From NCBI GenBank assembly GCA_003130845.1, contig QEXW01000074.1:1-56700 (forward strand): a stretch of DNA of 56,700 nt, read 5' to 3'. Position numbers and translations under genes: made by a program. The notes beneath the pieces are model-generated. The model had not been told where the DNA came from and did no database searches. It saw nothing but the letters and a program-made list of their open reading frames with translations. This DNA comes from Anaerolineae bacterium. Lineage in GTDB: Bacteria; Chloroflexota; Anaerolineae; Anaerolineales; Villigracilaceae. Shown here piece after piece: positions 5,198 through 39,047 of the stretch (positions are counted from its first letter, which is position 1; every line of letters starts with the position of its first letter).

Positions 5198-5526
5198 GGC
5201 TTACCTCCTTACTCTAAACCAATCAAAACAAATGCCCGGAAAATGCTTTGTTGCAAAGAGGGACATACTCCTTGTGCTTTCGCGCCTTCTCGCCAGATTT
5301 CCCTCCCCCCTGCCTCTTGGGGTGAGAGGAAACCACAGACAAATGCCGTGTTTGCAACAGTGCACCCGGAAAATACTACATCTGTGGGTAAATTTTTTTA
5401 AAGGGCGAATCGGAGATTCCACGCTATACCATATCAATATCATAAGCAAAATCTATCAACCTGCAACCGTGCTCTCGACGTTTCGCTCAAAATGAACAAG
5501 TGAAACCTTACAAAACGCCAAATTCT

Positions 5527-5544
5527 TTGTGACTTACTTCACAA
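5527..5544. promoter_or_regulatory. Putative Rex operator (site 1)
   Basis: TTGTGACTTACTTCACAA is an 18-bp inverted repeat with TTGTGA/TCACAA arms, matching the known Rex consensus (TTGTGA-N6-TCACAA) in both arms. It overlaps the likely -35 region (CTTACT, with TACACT 17 bp downstream) of the DRTGG operon. Rex releases DNA when NADH/NAD+ is high, which fits a hydrogen-producing NADH sink. Confidence 0.75.
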
Positions 5545-5556
5545 TATACATATTGT
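5541..5556. promoter_or_regulatory. 16-bp palindrome next to the Rex box
   Basis: ACAATATACATATTGT has perfect 7-bp arms around AC. It starts in the last bases of the Rex-like box and covers the -10/-35 spacer of the likely promoter. It could be a second regulator's site, but no known consensus is recognised. Confidence 0.4.
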
Positions 5557-5609
5557 ACACTCTGGGGTAAAATTCATCCAGACAAAGTGGAAGGAGTTAT
5601 TTTTATCGT

Positions 5610-5969
5610 ATGAATGTGCAACAATTGGTTGAAGTAGTCGAAGGAACCGTCTTGAACCCACAAGTCTCGCTAAAGCACGAGTTGAAAGGCGGTTGCGGAG
5701 CCGATTTGATGAGCGATGTCCTGGCATCGGTCAAGCCTGATGCCGTTTTGCTAACCGGATTGTGCAACATCCAAGTTGTGCGCACCGCCCAGATGGCCGA
5801 TGTGCGTGCAATTGTCTTTGTACGCGGTAAAAAACCACCAGCCGATACCATCGCCCTGGCAACGCAGGAAGGCATCCCCCTCATCACCAGCCCATTCGGC
5901 ATGTTTGAATTGTGTGGTCGGTTGTACCAAGCCGGTCTGCACAGCCTGGAAGACCCGGTCTCCAACTAA
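5610..5969 (+). CDS. DRTGG domain protein, hydrogenase-associated
   Basis: A 119-aa protein that is essentially one DRTGG-type domain: conserved GCGADLMSDVLA at about residues 28-39, and an alternating strand/helix pattern through IVFVRGKKP and GIPLITSPFGMFEL. Small stand-alone DRTGG proteins recur next to NAD-linked [FeFe] hydrogenases and are thought to be regulatory or nucleotide-binding, with no proven reaction. It opens a four-gene run (DRTGG, CBS-HATPase, DRTGG-like, PHP), and a Rex-type box lies just upstream. AAGGAG precedes the ATG at a rather long spacing. Confidence 0.8.
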   Translation: MNVQQLVEVVEGTVLNPQVSLKHELKGGCGADLMSDVLASVKPDAVLLTGLCNIQVVRTAQMADVRAIVFVRGKKPPADTIALATQEGIPLITSPFGMFELCGRLYQAGLHSLEDPVSN

Positions 5970-7350: not shown

Positions 7351-8118
7351 GTGAAGACTTTTCGAGCGGACCTGCATGTTCATACCGTACTATCGCCCTG
7401 CGCAAGCGTGGAAATGATTCCGCCACTGATTGTGCAGGAAGCACGGCAGAACGGCATCCAACTCATTGCCATTACCGACCACAACGCCAGCGCCAACATC
7501 TCTGCGGTAATGGAAGCGGCGCGCGGGACCGACCTGGTTGTCCTGCCGGGCATGGAACTACAAACCAAAGAAGAAGTGCATCTCCTGTGCCTGTTCGATA
7601 CCCTCGAACAGGTTTTTTCATGGCAAAAACAAGTAGATAGCCTGCTACCCAACCTGCCCAACAATATCGAATACTTTGGTGAACAATTCGTTGTAGATGC
7701 CACCGGAGACTTCATCCGCCGGGAAGAACGGTTACTGCTCAACTCCGTCAATCTCACGCTAGACGAGGCTGCCGCACAAGTTACTGCCTTGGGTGGGTTG
7801 GCCATTCCAGCACATATTGACCGTTCGGCCAACGGCCTGATTGCCATTTTGGGATTGATTCCACCCGGCTTTGAAGCGCTGGAACTCTCGCGCCACATCA
7901 GCCCGGCTGAAGCCTGCCGCAAACACCCGCAAGTGGCTACCTATCCCCTTATTCAAAGCGGAGATGTACATTTGCTTGATGGGTTTCTTGGCACAACCTA
8001 CTTCCAGGTCGAATCTCCAACCATTGCCGAACTGCGCCTGGCGCTGGCCAGAAAAGAAGGCCGTTCCGTCTGGGTTACAGCCACCCCAAAAACTGACAAA
8101 AATTGTCCAAATCTGTGA
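7351..8118 (+). CDS. PHP-domain metal-dependent phosphoesterase
   Basis: A 255-aa PHP-domain protein starting at GTG. DLHVHTVLSPC near the N-terminus gives the HxH metal motif, ITDHNA near residue 48 and GMELQTKEEVHLLCLF near residues 70-86 give further metal ligands, and AHIDR and SGDVH-like segments supply the rest of the nine-residue site. PHP proteins hydrolyse phosphoesters, and this subgroup is common beside DRTGG/HATPase genes in hydrogenase operons. Its substrate is unknown. It ends the first unit, and the next 217 bp hold a new promoter. Confidence 0.85.
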   Translation: MKTFRADLHVHTVLSPCASVEMIPPLIVQEARQNGIQLIAITDHNASANISAVMEAARGTDLVVLPGMELQTKEEVHLLCLFDTLEQVFSWQKQVDSLLPNLPNNIEYFGEQFVVDATGDFIRREERLLLNSVNLTLDEAAAQVTALGGLAIPAHIDRSANGLIAILGLIPPGFEALELSRHISPAEACRKHPQVATYPLIQSGDVHLLDGFLGTTYFQVESPTIAELRLALARKEGRSVWVTATPKTDKNCPNL

Positions 8119-33199: not shown

Positions 33200-34534
33200 A
33201 TGAGCCACAAAACCTTCCACCTCATCTCCCTGGGCTGCGCCAAAAACACGGTTGATTCCGATTCTATGGCGCAATTGCTCATCCAGGATGGTTATCAGCC
33301 GGTTGAAAATGCCCGCAAAGCCGGCGTGCTGATTGTGAATACCTGCGGCTTCATTGGCCCGGCCAAAGAAGAATCGCTCAACACCCTCAAAGAATTAGCC
33401 GCCCAAAAGCGCAATGGGCAACTCTTGATTGCAGCAGGCTGCCTAACGCAACGATACGGCGTGCAAGTCGCCCAGCAAGTTCCTGGCATAGATGGCATCC
33501 TCGGCACACGCCGCTGGATGGACATTGTACAAGTCGTCAGCCAATTGCGCGCCAAACCCCATCCCGAACCACTCTACCATTTGCCAGAAGCACCTACCGT
33601 CGGAAGCGACGAACGCGACACCATCCGCGCCAGTGTTGCCGGAGCCAGCGCCTACCTCAAGGTGGCCGATGGGTGTCGCCGCCCCTGTGCCTTTTGCGCC
33701 ATTCCGCTCATCAAGGGAACCGCAGTCAGCCGCCCCTTAGAGACCATTTTGCACGAAGCGCGGCAACTGCGCGCAATGGGCGTGCGCGAACTGATTCTGA
33801 TTGCGCAAGACACCACCGATTACGGGCATGATTTGGGAATGAAAGATGGCTTGGCGACCTTGCTTGAAAACCTAGTCCAGGCCGTTCCAGAGATGGATTG
33901 GATTCGGGTCATGTATGCCTATCCCGGCTACGTCACCGACCGGTTGATTGAAGTCATGGCTTCCCACCGGCAAATCTTGCCCTATCTCGACATTCCGCTG
34001 CAACACGCGCATCCCAAAACGCTTTACCGGATGAAACGCCCCTCAAACATTGACTGGGTACACAAAACCCTGGCCAAAATGCGTTCCGCCATGCCAGAAC
34101 TGGCCATTCGCACCACCTTCATCGTGGGGTATCCTGGTGAAACGGAAGAAGAATTTCAAGCCTTGCTCGACTTCGTCCAAGAAATTCGTTTCGACCGAGT
34201 AGGGGCATTTCAGTTCTCCTTTGAGCCAGGCACCAGCAGCGAGAGCCTCGGCGACCCAATCCCCGCCGCAGTCAAACAGGAACGCTGGGAGCGGCTGATG
34301 GAACTTCAGCAGAACATCTCCCTCCAAATCAATCAATCCTATGTGGGCAAAACGCTCGACGTACTGGTGGAAGGGTACGACAAAGGTCTGACCATTGGCC
34401 GCTCGTATCGCGACGCCCCAGAGATTGATGGGCTGGTTTTCGCCGAAGGCAAAGCCGAAATTGGTCAGATGGTGCGGGTGAAAATCACCGGCGGTATGGC
34501 CTATGACCTAACCGGCACATTGTTAAAAGACTAG
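33200..34534 (+). CDS. rimO: Ribosomal protein S12 methylthiotransferase RimO
   Basis: A 444-aa radical SAM enzyme that methylthiolates Asp in ribosomal protein S12. An N-terminal UPF0004 domain opens with LISLGCAKNTVDSD and holds three cluster cysteines. CRRPCAFCAIP near residue 155 is the CxxxCxxC radical SAM motif, and a TRAM domain lies at about 375-444. The LGCAKNTVDS start and the length fit RimO rather than MiaB. A 110-bp gap upstream shows nothing beyond an AAGGAA ribosome site. Confidence 0.95.
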   Translation: MSHKTFHLISLGCAKNTVDSDSMAQLLIQDGYQPVENARKAGVLIVNTCGFIGPAKEESLNTLKELAAQKRNGQLLIAAGCLTQRYGVQVAQQVPGIDGILGTRRWMDIVQVVSQLRAKPHPEPLYHLPEAPTVGSDERDTIRASVAGASAYLKVADGCRRPCAFCAIPLIKGTAVSRPLETILHEARQLRAMGVRELILIAQDTTDYGHDLGMKDGLATLLENLVQAVPEMDWIRVMYAYPGYVTDRLIEVMASHRQILPYLDIPLQHAHPKTLYRMKRPSNIDWVHKTLAKMRSAMPELAIRTTFIVGYPGETEEEFQALLDFVQEIRFDRVGAFQFSFEPGTSSESLGDPIPAAVKQERWERLMELQQNISLQINQSYVGKTLDVLVEGYDKGLTIGRSYRDAPEIDGLVFAEGKAEIGQMVRVKITGGMAYDLTGTLLKD

Positions 34535-34595: not shown

Positions 34596-34627
34596 AAAAG
34601 GGCTGGTTGACCAGCCCTTTTCTTTTA
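34596..34627. terminator. Bidirectional terminator between rimO and the 918-aa gene
   Basis: An 11-bp stem (AAAAGGGCTGG/CCAGCCCTTTT) with a TTGA loop, T-rich on the right and A-rich on the left, between convergent gene ends. Confidence 0.9.
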
Positions 34628-37381
34628 GCGTATCGGCAAGTATTTCTCTTGGTAGGCTTGCCATGCCTCAGGCGACATCACCTCGCGACGTAGAATCTTG
34701 TTCCAATCGAGCATTTCGCGCAGATGAGCATAGGGAACATCGCCTTCTGGCACAAAACCGACAAAAGAACCGTTGTAATTCTCCTCTGTTCCCATGTAGA
34801 GTGCATTCGAAAGCCAAATGCGAAATAGGCCAATTGACGAGAGCCCTGGGTCATCATCGGGCAAAGCGGTCTCAAAAGTCAGCACCACCGGGCCTTCAGC
34901 AGTGTCTCCCACAGCGGCCACGGTCGCCTCATGAATCCAGCGCAGCCATTGCTCCTGCGTTACCTGCTTCTTTTCAGCATCCAAGAATGTGCGGGTGCGC
35001 TTGACCATATCTGTCGTCGTATACTTCCAATCACTCTTTCCAATCACTTGGGGGTCAAGCAGCGTATCGCCGTCTTTGGTGGCAATTGGACGGGCTACCC
35101 GCCAAGGGCTAAACTCTTCAGAAACGAAGCGCAACCAGAGAATGCTGGCGCCGACGGTGAAATCTTCACGTTTTTTGGGCTTGACAAAATAGGGACGCGG
35201 CTGGCCGGGCAGTTTGTTCTCGCGCTCGTGCTTGAGATACCAGGGCGCTTTGGCGGTCAGGCCGCCAGGCGGATGGTGTCCGCGCAAGTGCTGGCAGTGT
35301 TCAGCCGTTTCATTGCACACCGCACGGCTAACAATCAACCGGTGAGTACGCGCGTGTTCTTCGCGCCAGGCGCCCATATTTTCTTCGCGCCACTTGCCAA
35401 GAATAGCGCGCAACTCACCATATTCGCGGGCATTCTTTTGTGCTTCTTCTGCGGGGGTCAGTTTTTCCCAATTCAAATCCTGGACGTGATTAACACGCAA
35501 GGGCGTGACCGCCACAATTTCCTTCCAGGCCCAGGCTGGGAAAGTGTCTTTCATTCTCTCAATTTCTTCCAGCGCCTGCTCTTCGCTCATCTGCTCTAGT
35601 TCATAGCGGCGTTCGTCAATTGTCAGGGCAAGCAATGCCGCACGGCGAGTTTTAGGACCATTGGCTTTGATTCCCTGCAAATGTAAAGCCAGTTTGTCCT
35701 TCCAAGTTTTTTCTGGGGCATCCGCCAGGCCAGGGCGGTTGGGGTGAGCGGTCGTGTACATCTCGATTCGGGCCTGGCAACGTTTTTGGATGTCCTCATC
35801 GGAGAGGGCTTGCAGTTCTTTTTCCATTTTTGCACTATGCAAGCGAATCAACAAATCGCGCGGGCTGGCCCACGAACCATGCGCACTGCGATAACGCATG
35901 CCTGAAAAATGAATCACCATATACTGGAGCCATAGCGGAAAGCGTTCCGGCTCTGCCAAGAAACGCTCAACGACCATCTCTAATAATTCCTGGCTATTTT
36001 TATGCTCGAGCGACATGCGATATTCTTCCACTTTGGCGCGCGCAATCTGCTTGGCAGTAATTGCCCCAGAGGGTTGGTACTCGCTCAGCCAAGCCGTTTC
36101 ATCAATCGCCAGTATTGCTTCCGATTCGGCAAGTTCTTTTTGCAGAGCGTCGCGTTCTGCACAGAGCACCGACAAGTTTTGATGCACCTTTTGCAATTCC
36201 TGCTCTTTGGCCTTGATTTCTTTTTCGATTTCGGCTTGTGGGCGGCTAATAGCCGACAAACCAGCTTGGAAATTGGTCAGCTGTGCGATTTCGCTTCGCA
36301 GAAACACCAAAAGGTGTTGACGCAAGGCATTGAGACGGGCTTCACTTTCGGCGCGGCGCGACCAGCCAGGAGCAGCATTGCGCAAATTGACCTCTAGCGT
36401 AGCGGCTTCTTTTTCGAGTTCTTTTAGAAATTGTTGCCAGTTAAACAGGTGATTCCGCAACGCCAGGGGCTTATTGCCGGCGTAACTGTATTCCCCCAGC
36501 ATCGCTTTGCGCAATTCGACAACGCGCTTTAAGAAGCGAGGCTCAGCATGTTCGCCCAGTAACGCGGCAGGGTCCGTCTCTTGAAAATGCTGTTCGGCCA
36601 GGCGATAATCGGGGGGAGATTTCAGCCGCTCTAGTTCGGCAGAGAGGGTTTCGTATTTTGCTTCCAGAGGCCGCAGGTTGGTCTCGTAGGTGGGCAGTTT
36701 GCGGATAAGTTGGTCTTTGCGCCGACGGGCATTCTCTTGGGCCTCAAACAGTTGCAATTTGCGATCGTAGATGCGTTCCAGCGCTTTGATGAGTTTACGC
36801 AAACGAATCAGTTCCTCATCTACCATGCGCAAGCTAAGCGAGTACATTCTATCCAACTCGGTTAGTTCCTGCGAACGGCGCGGATGGTCTGCCCCCAACT
36901 CTTCGATACGGCGCTTTTTGGAAGCAATCAGCCGCCGAATTTCCGCTCTGCGTTCCACCCATTGCGGCTCGAATTGGCCGATAAAATATTTCTCTTTGCG
37001 CACATCACGCATGGAGGGCAGGAATTGAATAAACTGCGCGTGTAACTGATGGATTTTATTCAGTTCTGTTTCATCCACATCGCCCAACAATGCCACATAG
37101 TCTGCACGCACATCAGGCTTCAAAAAATAATCTTTGGCTATCTGGTATTCCTGCAAGGCCTGCTGCACCAAAGCGGCCTGGGTTTGATGATAGGCACGAA
37201 TATCCGCCCCCAATTCCGCAGGAGTCTTGTCTTTATAGGCTTGCCAGATGTCTATCTCTGCAAAGTAAATCAAAAAATCGCACAATTTGACTTCACGCAA
37301 AGGATAGATGGTTTTAAGCAAAAATTCGTTTTGCCATTGAAAATAGAGAGGTTGGTTCAAAGGGCCTCCGATATACTCCAC
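34625..37381 (-). CDS. Unrecognised 918-aa coiled-coil protein
   Basis: A large soluble protein with no signal peptide or membrane helix. Residues 1-130 are helical and Trp/Tyr-rich (FAEIDIWQAYKDKT). About 145-260 and 380-430 are strongly predicted coiled coils rich in Glu, Lys, Arg and Leu. The middle (about 440-640) is charged and helical. The C-terminal 200 residues (WYLKHERENKLPGQ, ASILWLRFVSEEFSPW, VVLTFETALPDDDPG) look globular with beta strands. I recognise no catalytic motif or family. It ends the operon begun by the PF00882-like hydrolase, 24 bp upstream, so the two may act together. Confidence 0.8.
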   Translation of the reverse strand: MEYIGGPLNQPLYFQWQNEFLLKTIYPLREVKLCDFLIYFAEIDIWQAYKDKTPAELGADIRAYHQTQAALVQQALQEYQIAKDYFLKPDVRADYVALLGDVDETELNKIHQLHAQFIQFLPSMRDVRKEKYFIGQFEPQWVERRAEIRRLIASKKRRIEELGADHPRRSQELTELDRMYSLSLRMVDEELIRLRKLIKALERIYDRKLQLFEAQENARRRKDQLIRKLPTYETNLRPLEAKYETLSAELERLKSPPDYRLAEQHFQETDPAALLGEHAEPRFLKRVVELRKAMLGEYSYAGNKPLALRNHLFNWQQFLKELEKEAATLEVNLRNAAPGWSRRAESEARLNALRQHLLVFLRSEIAQLTNFQAGLSAISRPQAEIEKEIKAKEQELQKVHQNLSVLCAERDALQKELAESEAILAIDETAWLSEYQPSGAITAKQIARAKVEEYRMSLEHKNSQELLEMVVERFLAEPERFPLWLQYMVIHFSGMRYRSAHGSWASPRDLLIRLHSAKMEKELQALSDEDIQKRCQARIEMYTTAHPNRPGLADAPEKTWKDKLALHLQGIKANGPKTRRAALLALTIDERRYELEQMSEEQALEEIERMKDTFPAWAWKEIVAVTPLRVNHVQDLNWEKLTPAEEAQKNAREYGELRAILGKWREENMGAWREEHARTHRLIVSRAVCNETAEHCQHLRGHHPPGGLTAKAPWYLKHERENKLPGQPRPYFVKPKKREDFTVGASILWLRFVSEEFSPWRVARPIATKDGDTLLDPQVIGKSDWKYTTTDMVKRTRTFLDAEKKQVTQEQWLRWIHEATVAAVGDTAEGPVVLTFETALPDDDPGLSSIGLFRIWLSNALYMGTEENYNGSFVGFVPEGDVPYAHLREMLDWNKILRREVMSPEAWQAYQEKYLPIR

Positions 37382-37405
37382 AAGATGGTTGAGAAGGAGA
37401 GCGTA

Positions 37406-38077
37406 TCAGCCAGAATGGGTCAGGATTGCTTGCCGTAGCATGGTGTCATTTCGCAAAGCAGCCAACATTTGACGATTGAGAGCATCCATCTGACTCAGGT
37501 GAAAAACGAAAGACTTGAGCGCCGGGTATTGTTCAGCCATGTTGACCAGGCGGGCATAAAGTGCTACACGGCGGCTGGAAGGGCGCAAAACACGTAAAAA
37601 GGTCAGCGCTGTGCGGGGTGAGGGGTCTGCCACAAACGGACGCAGGGTCTCGGCAAAAGCGTAGGCATGCTCGTCCGGAATTCCCAATTCTCGCAAAATC
37701 GGGTTGGGCGCACCGGATATATCAAATCGGCGAGGCATTTTTTCAACATAATACGTTTCGAGCAAAATGGTAGAAACCCGGCCAGAAAATATCAACCAGA
37801 GCGGCCACAACAAAATGCGCTGCTCGAGCAAAGCACGGAACTTAAGCAGGTCGGTCAGAATATGCACCAAATAGCCCTGGGTAAACGATTGCAACTGGGG
37901 GTATTTTGTAAAAAAAGAGAGAACCCTTTCCGGTGATATGTGAGTTTGTGCCCGGCGGGTTCCAGCAGCGTAACGCACATCCGGTGCAACCGCACCCCAA
38001 TAGTAATCGGAGACATCTACGGGCTGAATTTCTGCTTCGAGTTGCGCGGCAATCGCCAAGTGCGAGTAGGGGTTCAT
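37406..38077 (-). CDS. Zinc-dependent phospholipase C-like hydrolase (PF00882-like)
   Basis: A 223-aa protein starting at MNPYSHLAIA. NPYSHL near the N-terminus, GAVAPDVRY at about residue 30, QTHISPE at about 45 and GYLVHILTD at about 70 give the H/D/H/HxxxD pattern of the zinc phospholipase C/S1-P1-like family. No signal peptide is visible, so it may act in the cytoplasm, unlike secreted phospholipases C. It is 24 bp upstream of the 918-aa gene on the same strand. The substrate is unknown. Confidence 0.7.
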   Translation of the reverse strand: MNPYSHLAIAAQLEAEIQPVDVSDYYWGAVAPDVRYAAGTRRAQTHISPERVLSFFTKYPQLQSFTQGYLVHILTDLLKFRALLEQRILLWPLWLIFSGRVSTILLETYYVEKMPRRFDISGAPNPILRELGIPDEHAYAFAETLRPFVADPSPRTALTFLRVLRPSSRRVALYARLVNMAEQYPALKSFVFHLSQMDALNRQMLAALRNDTMLRQAILTHSG

Positions 38078-38218: not shown

Positions 38219-38318
38219 GAGCAATGTAGTGGCTTCTGACCATCTCGCAGTGCATGCTTTCCCGCCATTTCATTCGACGTTCAGCCTGTATCAACGGGTC
38301 TGCTCTCGGCTTCTCTTC

Positions 38319-38356
38319 CCAATCGGCAGTCTTAATGGCTGCCGATTGGCATTTTA
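38319..38356 (+). terminator. Terminator-like hairpin in the leader of the RNase H-like gene
   Basis: An 11-bp stem (CCAATCGGCAG/CTGCCGATTGG), 9-nt loop, then CATTTTATT, ending 20 bp before the ATG. No gene on this strand lies upstream in the gap, so it would terminate or attenuate a leader transcript. Confidence 0.6.
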
Positions 38357-38376
38357 TTCCAATCAAGGAGACAGAT

Positions 38377-38910
38377 ATGTTTCGACTGGAATTTGATGGC
38401 CTGTTCCGCAGCGCCAACGATGACCATCCGACACCCGCCGGCATTATGTGTTACGGCTGGCGTATCCTGCGAGGGAAACGGGTCATCGCCCAGGGACATG
38501 GGACGTTTGCTCGCGGCCGCAACGCCAACTCAAACATCGCGGAATACTTGGCATTGGTCGAAGGCTTGGAAGCGCTGCATGACATGGGGGTCACCGAGGA
38601 ACGCGTGTTGGTGTGTGGCGATGCCAAGAGCGTAATTAACCAGATGGAAGGCGTGGCCGGTGTTTCCAGCCCGGCCGTGCGGACACTGCACGAGCGCGCG
38701 CAACGCTTGGCAGCGCAATTTCCCAACTTGCGCTGGGAATGGCTGCCACGCCGCCAGAACCGCGCCGCAGATGCGCTCTCGCGCCATGCTTTCAAACGCC
38801 TACGGCATGATTCTGTTTTGTACGATTCTATCTTGCAAAAAGTGCGCAAGAACCATCTCGCCGGACGGTTAATGGATGTTGGCGGGCTGCGAATTTACCA
38901 GCCAATTTAA
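38377..38910 (+). CDS. RNase H-like domain protein
   Basis: A 177-aa protein starting at the ATG at 38377 after AAGGAG. The RNase HI-type acidic residues are all in place: Asp7 (LEFDG), Glu near residue 53 (NIAEYLALVEGL), Asp near 81 (VCGDAKSVINQM) and Asp near 130 (QNRAADALSRHA). It likely cleaves RNA in RNA/DNA hybrids. A C-terminal extension (about residues 140-177, LRHDSVLYDSI) is not part of the core. It may alternatively act on another nucleic acid. Confidence 0.85.
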   Translation: MFRLEFDGLFRSANDDHPTPAGIMCYGWRILRGKRVIAQGHGTFARGRNANSNIAEYLALVEGLEALHDMGVTEERVLVCGDAKSVINQMEGVAGVSSPAVRTLHERAQRLAAQFPNLRWEWLPRRQNRAADALSRHAFKRLRHDSVLYDSILQKVRKNHLAGRLMDVGGLRIYQPI

Positions 38911-38936: not shown

Positions 38937-39010
38937 GGGCGCATAGCTCAGTTGGTCAGAGCGTCTCGTTTACACCGAGAAGGTCAGGGGTTCGAGTCCC
39001 TTTGCGCCCA
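38937..39010 (+). tRNA. tRNA-Val (anticodon TAC)
   Basis: A 74-nt cloverleaf. The acceptor stem pairs GGGCGCA with TGCGCCC, TAGCTCAGTTGGTCAGAGC forms the D arm, and the anticodon arm is TCTCG-TTTACAC-CGAGA with anticodon TAC. GGTTCGAGTCC forms the T arm, and A is the discriminator. CCA is not encoded. Confidence 0.97.
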
Positions 39011-39047
39011 CTCTGTATTTAGGTGAGATTTAACCCGTCCCCAAGGC

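Follow-up and report, generated by a model that had tools for sequence, protein, structure and literature searches.

Papain-like and transglutaminase-like cysteine hydrolases share an order in which a cysteine at the start of a helix is followed by a histidine on a strand and by an acidic residue on the next strand. Among multi-protein assemblies, vWA-MoxR ternary conflict systems (VMAP, iSTAND) are treated in PMC7159879. Both serve as points of comparison for a large gene on the reverse strand of a 56,700-nucleotide stretch, referred to below as the window, from an Anaerolineae bacterium of the Villigracilaceae (GCA_003130845.1, contig QEXW01000074.1). The original prediction for this gene had described an orphan coiled-coil protein of 918 amino acids (aa), coupled with a hydrolase-like gene. 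Comparison with its relatives establishes a family, a duplicated arm module, a set of fixed residues and an order of predicted structural elements. The C-terminal half resembles a domain with an active site, and the reading tentatively favoured is a C-terminal cysteine hydrolase on a helical arm; it is ranked above a non-enzymatic scaffold, then a metal- or cofactor-binding protein, then a conflict-system component, and its overall grade is one of moderate to low confidence.

The alignment comprises 59 rows. Of the 78 matched loci, 24 were left out as duplicates, truncated or frameshifted; four of these 24 (L030, L032, L033 and L087) are contigs already among the five rows kept from the first set, and the N-terminally short rows L029, L045 and L081 were kept, where they hide N-terminal invariants. 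The 58 other rows align at 36–65% identity, which excludes a chance open reading frame (ORF) and marks the big gene, on sequence evidence, as genuine. In the numbering of the 918-aa frame, which is used throughout, the 59 rows contain 61 invariant columns, every one at residue 474 or beyond. The fairer count, over the 56 full rows, is 76, with 66 at or beyond residue 474 and 10 at residues 14–114, nine of these ten being held by the N-terminal conserved block (Table 1). A C-terminal enzyme is suggested because Cys689, His817 and Glu837 are fixed there.

The predicted model of the whole protein (mean predicted local distance difference test score, pLDDT, 90.0; predicted template modelling score 0.73) is helical to residue 721 and continues with a beta domain and flanking helices, in support of the globular C-terminus proposed earlier. 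Folded alone, the C-terminal domain gave a pLDDT of 85.4 and agreed with the whole model. In the VIA fold comparison, 996 chains were aligned to this domain and 11 PDB entries reached Z of at least 2. The top row was the PaJOS clippase (Z 3.8, root-mean-square deviation (rmsd) 5.5, 133 residues aligned), and SERA5 (Z 3.2, rmsd 4.5, 105 aligned) and the MERS papain-like protease (Z 2.5, rmsd 4.2, 94 aligned) were also among them; these three of the 11 we take to be papain-fold cysteine proteases or their relatives. Their alignments run from domain residue 46–49 to 239–241, the cysteine being domain residue 50. Four transglutaminase-core proteins of related genomes, inspected by eye, show the order Cys, His, Asp or Glu.

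Several results weigh against a cysteine hydrolase. The aligned range proves nothing, since the non-protease lipoprotein YmcC (Z 2.2) likewise covers residues 49–239, and Pelota/Dom34, mitoribosomal, Tudor and flagellar proteins were found at similar Z; the overlap with papain-fold proteases is thus a hint only, with Z below 4 lying within the range of unrelated folds. Foldseek returned no match at E 0.001 for the C-terminal domain alone, and a Pfam search with the 59 C-terminal domains, taken up to E 10, gave 11 weak families and no cysteine peptidase. By hhalign the domain reached a probability of 1.1% against NlpC_P60 and 0.3% against the transglutaminase core, a comparison that says little because these two families miss each other as well (0.16%). 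Finally, the other invariant polar residues (His491, His501, His676, Asn690, Glu691, Glu694, Gln697, His698 and Arg700) would suit a metal or cofactor site as well.

Under the favoured reading, the C-terminal domain would be a papain/transglutaminase-type cysteine hydrolase with the putative triad Cys689-His817-Glu837, joined by the predicted all-helical middle domain to an arm of one or two module copies. The arm may determine how the protein oligomerises, or extend to a partner or substrate; the cysteine domain, for its part, would act on a peptide or amide bond by cleaving or modifying it. The location of the window's protein is presumably cytoplasmic, no signal having been seen.

The original prediction of two long coiled coils holds in so far as the model contains long helices; they are one module in two copies, and only 11 of the 59 aligned proteins possess both. 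The two copies matched each other by hhalign with a probability of 97.2% (E 3.6e-11; reversed-profile control 0.9%), the best single pair giving E 5e-11 and 27% identity over 122 residues. In the 11 rows the second copy lies within an insert of about 210 residues, where the 48 rows that lack it have fewer than 40, and by these alignments the arms were lengthened by duplicating one helical module. The long form falls into two groups of the tree, of 8 and 3 rows, requiring two changes, and none of 500 shuffles was as low; its origin may be parallel gain, or a single gain with losses. Another candidate repeat, within the middle domain, was rejected: an in-register alignment of FPLWLQYMVIHFSGMRY and FPAWAWKEIVAVTPLRV gave a probability of 2.0%, with 0.2% for the reversed control.

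Table 1. Positions in the window of the gene, of its parts and of adjoining features
Feature	Coordinates	Strand	Basis or remark
Coding sequence, likely start TTG 37360, 911 aa	34625..37360	-	start position common to many relatives
GGAGG, Shine-Dalgarno-like, 4 bases ahead of TTG 37360	37365..37369	-	read directly
N-terminal conserved block YFQWQNE..L.KTIYP.RE.KLRDFL, residues 8-50	37232..37360	-	nearly invariant columns
Helical arm module copy 1, residues 81-213	36743..37141	-	hhalign against copy 2
Helical arm module copy 2, residues 261-387, within insert of 11/59 rows	36221..36601	-	hhalign
All-helical middle domain, residues 443-640	35462..36055	-	predicted model
WLQYMVIHFSGMRY.SAHGSW block, residues 484-504	35870..35932	-	15/21 positions invariant, 2 more nearly so
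C-terminal alpha/beta domain, putative cysteine hydrolase, residues 672-897	34691..35368	-	model and fold comparison
Cys689, invariant 59/59, opens predicted helix 689-699	35315..35317	-	alignment and model
His817, invariant 59/59, predicted strand 806-827	34931..34933	-	alignment and model
Glu837, invariant 59/59, predicted strand 830-839	34871..34873	-	alignment and model
GGGCTGGTTGACCAGCCC hairpin, A and T runs on both sides, just past the stop codon	34600..34617		read directly
PF00882-like ORF, 223 aa, upstream neighbour	37406..38077	-	ATG 38077; ORF listing has 238 aa from TTG 38122

The length of 918 aa corresponds to an intact frame of 918 codons from GTG 37381 (34625–37381, reverse strand), ahead of which no Shine-Dalgarno site is evident. 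TTG 37360 is preferred as the start because GGAGG precedes it and because its translation begins MNQPLYFQWQN, resembling the MAxxxYFQWQN with which many relatives begin; a protein of 911 rather than 918 residues is the more likely product. Averaged over 19 residues, Kyte-Doolittle values stay below 1.0 along the whole protein (maximum 0.92), hence no membrane segment is expected and the description of a large soluble protein holds good.

The big protein was searched against Pfam, NCBIfam, PADLOC and PHROGs and gave weak matches only, mostly to coiled coil. The best PADLOC match (E 0.0014) was to the coiled-coil part of LmuB and is weak noise. Searches of PDB sequences gave eight chance-level matches with the family profiles (best E 0.024) and no match with the profile of the C-terminal domain. 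DHFR-like PDB matches at residues 755–832 (E 0.2–0.9) were not repeated with the family profiles and are taken as chance. Foldseek returned no match at E 0.001 for the whole model, and whole-model fold searches were dominated by the coiled coil. A relationship to SMC/Rad50 was likewise rejected: the NCBIfam scores of 9–18 bits, against cut-offs of 300–1000, are coiled-coil noise, and no Walker A motif (G-x4-GK[ST]) was found anywhere in the 918 residues. A Pfam scan of the 59 members revealed a LuxR-type helix-turn-helix (HTH) in one (E 5.1e-11), which its sequence identifies as the distant relative L089. By these searches no known family claims the protein and its family is unnamed, in line with the original prediction.

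The family is nevertheless not a strict orphan. With family profiles, matches (fragments included) were found in 66 of the 152 genomes of its own family, the Villigracilaceae, corresponding to 40 of 88 high-quality genomes and 10 of 26 genera; at the wider ranks the figures were 8 of 396 genomes for the class, and the same 8 in a phylum sample of 400. Among 84,980 species genomes, a scan that requires one of two exact peptide patterns, and that distant relatives can escape, picked out 66 loci. By title, 65 of them belong to Chloroflexota (Anaerolineales, Anaerolineae, Anaerolinea, Brevefilum, Villigracilaceae, Chloroflexi and one Herpetosiphon) and one to an alphaproteobacterium. The Herpetosiphon row is nested within a clade of Anaerolineales-titled rows. 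The alphaproteobacterial locus (L092, 1–1216) was rejected as an outside member, being by eye a chimeric contig. In that contig the family frame continues without a break into an ABC-transporter-type ATPase, which should caution against automated calls of domain fusion. A phage, plasmid or viral origin was also rejected; of three scans covering viral contigs, phages and plasmids, one yielded 74 pattern matches and no relatives, and the other two yielded no match. Four of the 11 genomes in the window's genus have a match: intact genes in G000 and G006, a contig-edge fragment in G010 and a decayed gene in G009. The protein family thus appears lineage-specific to Chloroflexota, mainly Anaerolineales and near relatives.

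The gene surroundings of the relatives were examined in ORFs up to 6 kb on each side of the scan loci, many contigs being shorter, and the neighbour counts rest on 65 of the 66 loci (L071 was left out). In 14 of 58 loci the next gene downstream, on the same strand and no more than 100 bp away, encodes a PD40/TolB-like propeller with a hydrophobic N-terminal stretch. The tree includes thirteen of these propeller loci, L090 not being among its rows, and places every one of them in a single clade of 26 rows; the downstream propeller may be inherited synteny, and the neighbourhood of the largest clade looks like inherited housekeeping synteny. A zinc-ribbon protein stands directly upstream of short-form members in 6 of 57 loci (L066, at 5375–5959, L057, L063, L064, L079 and L090), and five of these six proteins match ternary complex associated domain 2 (TCAD2) at E 9e-5 to 6e-3, all sub-threshold. 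An AAA/MoxR-type or vWA gene is next door in 5 of the 57 relatives' loci. In L031, L035 and L036 the AAA/MoxR-type gene is divergent at 119–176 bp, with a vWA (CoxE-type) gene behind it in L031 and L035, and in L049 and L051 a vWA/BatA gene lies 78 bp upstream of the family member; the loci within each group are closely related, and the Pfam naming was done on the L031 and L049 copies only. PADLOC gave nothing above weak noise for four neighbour proteins.

At L089 (2–5543) a run of three genes comprises a WD40 protein, the family member with the C-terminal LuxR-type HTH, and a further ORF. The family member starts 20 bp after the WD40 protein and overlaps the third ORF, for which neither Pfam, NCBIfam and PADLOC nor the PDB sequences gave a match within the limits applied.

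A twin-arginine translocation (Tat) signal, SRRDFLK, was found in seven loci (L047, L049, L051, L069, L073, L083 and L091; L024 is the L091 contig again). Six Tat-bearing rows are in the tree, all within one clade of eight rows (support 100/99); L083 is not among the tree's rows. Three genome bins contain a Tat-bearing copy together with a signal-less one (L047/L048, L069/L084 and L083/L050). No Tat signal was seen in most relatives, the window's protein included.

Of the alternatives to a cysteine hydrolase, a non-enzymatic scaffold, whose arms would assemble as a dimeric rod or a meshwork and whose conserved C-terminal half would be a binding surface, is somewhat unlikely. The long helices in two copies and a weak resemblance between the arms and coiled coils of the SMC, Rad50 and BAR types argue for it, but the SMC-like matches are the coiled-coil noise noted above, without the nucleotide-binding motif. 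Moreover, the absence of the second copy from most rows means that arm length is not essential, and the C-terminal clustering of the invariants, many of them polar, resembles an active or cofactor site. Such a site could also belong to a metal- or cofactor-binding protein or oxidoreductase, built from the invariant His, Glu and Cys around residues 676–700 and perhaps 491–501. His676, Glu691, Glu694 and His698 are fixed in 59 of 59 rows and His695 in 58, and the Tat route, for which seven loci bear signals, exports folded proteins, often with a cofactor. Tat export requires no cofactor, however, most relatives lack the signal, and we know of no classical zinc or di-iron motif with the His695-x-x-His698 spacing; a metal or cofactor protein is rated unlikely.

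A role as sensor or protease within a multi-protein complex of the vWA-MoxR ternary conflict or surveillance type is rated very unlikely. It is favoured by the MoxR/vWA neighbours of five loci, by the upstream zinc-ribbon proteins with their TCAD2-like matches, by the HTH-bearing member behind a WD40 protein, and by the patchy occurrence of the gene with its decay in a close relative. These contexts are few, however, and since the MoxR and vWA groups consist of close relatives they would amount to two or three events; beside the window's copy no MoxR, vWA or TCAD gene was seen by eye, neither the protein nor the four neighbours had a PADLOC match above noise, and the largest clade has its housekeeping-like neighbourhood. 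VMAP-C, for which Pfam presumably has a model, was not among the two Pfam families of the window protein (E 1), nor among the best 25 of 87 for the 59 members. Many Anaerolineales are filamentous. Least probable of all, and a long shot, is a combination in which the protein is the protease-type core of an Anaerolineales-specific surveillance or cell-fate system: a cysteine hydrolase on a duplicable arm, with cytoplasmic and Tat-exported paralogues, sometimes joined by vWA/MoxR, TCAD2-like zinc-ribbon, propeller and LuxR-type parts. The context hints fit vWA-MoxR-type complexes and surveillance systems as portrayed in PMC7159879, but they are few, nested phylogenetically and were not seen in the window.

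The coupling with a hydrolase did not survive comparison. The spacer from the PF00882-like ORF is 24 bp, as originally given, when measured to the GTG start, and 45 bp to the likelier TTG. This neighbour scored 21.6 bits against Pfam PF00882 over residues 6–77, under the gathering cut-off of 26.8, and its putative metal ligands H6, D33, H46, H72 and D76, which match what we take to be the His/Asp ligand pattern of PF00882, are kept in all three aligned sequences. With the proteins as queries, the big gene was matched in 10 of 61 genomes, its own included, and the hydrolase-like gene in three: the window's, G009 (72%) and G050 (a weak match, 35%, E 2.2e-5). Both genes occur together in two, the window's and G009. 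In G009 the hydrolase ORF is intact and the big gene has decayed to pieces (residues 8–58, 694–755 and 834–917). The remnant at L027 (G009:C94, 6950–7459) adjoins the hydrolase homologue, with an unrelated 151-aa ORF (7573–8028, forward strand) between the two that overlaps the end of the hydrolase gene. No hydrolase relative was found at E 0.01 among 632 ORFs kept from the 66 scan loci. Because co-occurrence is limited to 2 of 61 genomes, the G009 copy is decayed and none of the 632 neighbouring ORFs matches, the pairing is to all appearances recent or incidental and not conserved, the outcome that the original prediction had itself named as refuting a module.

The remaining neighbours in the window, named by eye, are RimO-like, RNase H-like and CoA-transferase-like ORFs. 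The GGGCTGGTTGACCAGCCC hairpin is likely to be a bidirectional terminator between the big gene and the convergent RimO-like ORF (33200–34534, forward strand). Near the locus lie the RNase H-like ORF (38254–38910) and a tRNA-Val(tac) gene (38937–39011), both ordinary; the closest RNase H neighbour to the window's is that of G009 (85%).

The locus represents an unnamed protein family that is widespread and strongly conserved in a group of bacteria both common and little studied. Should the cysteine site prove real, this would be a lineage-specific enzyme, without sequence kin in these searches and with cytoplasmic and exported copies in some bins. Otherwise the family still illustrates clearly how duplicating a module extends an arm, and it merits a family model.

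Compared with known systems, the big protein resembles the arms of SMC, Rad50 and MukB in its antiparallel long helices (best Z 10.9, rmsd 5.0, 108 residues aligned, residues 205–438) and differs from SMC and Rad50 in lacking G-x4-GK[ST] and in having an arm that is a duplicated module. The neighbour gene is like the PF00882 Zn-dependent phospholipase C family in its conserved H6, D33, H46, H72 and D76, and unlike it in its score below the Pfam cut-off; elsewhere it has no link to the big gene. A few relatives adjoin MoxR/vWA or TCAD2-like genes, as in the vWA-MoxR ternary systems described in PMC7159879, whereas the window's copy has no such genes alongside by eye. The papain-like and transglutaminase-like hydrolases (PaJOS, coronavirus papain-like protease, NlpC/P60, transglutaminase core) differ from the C-terminal domain, for which no sequence match to them was found and Z values stay below 4, and which has a long stretch inserted after its first strand, ahead of the strand that bears the His, and a large helical arm N-terminal to it; yet with these same hydrolases it shares the order Cys-His-acidic and a weak structural overlap that extends from the cysteine helix through the barrel.

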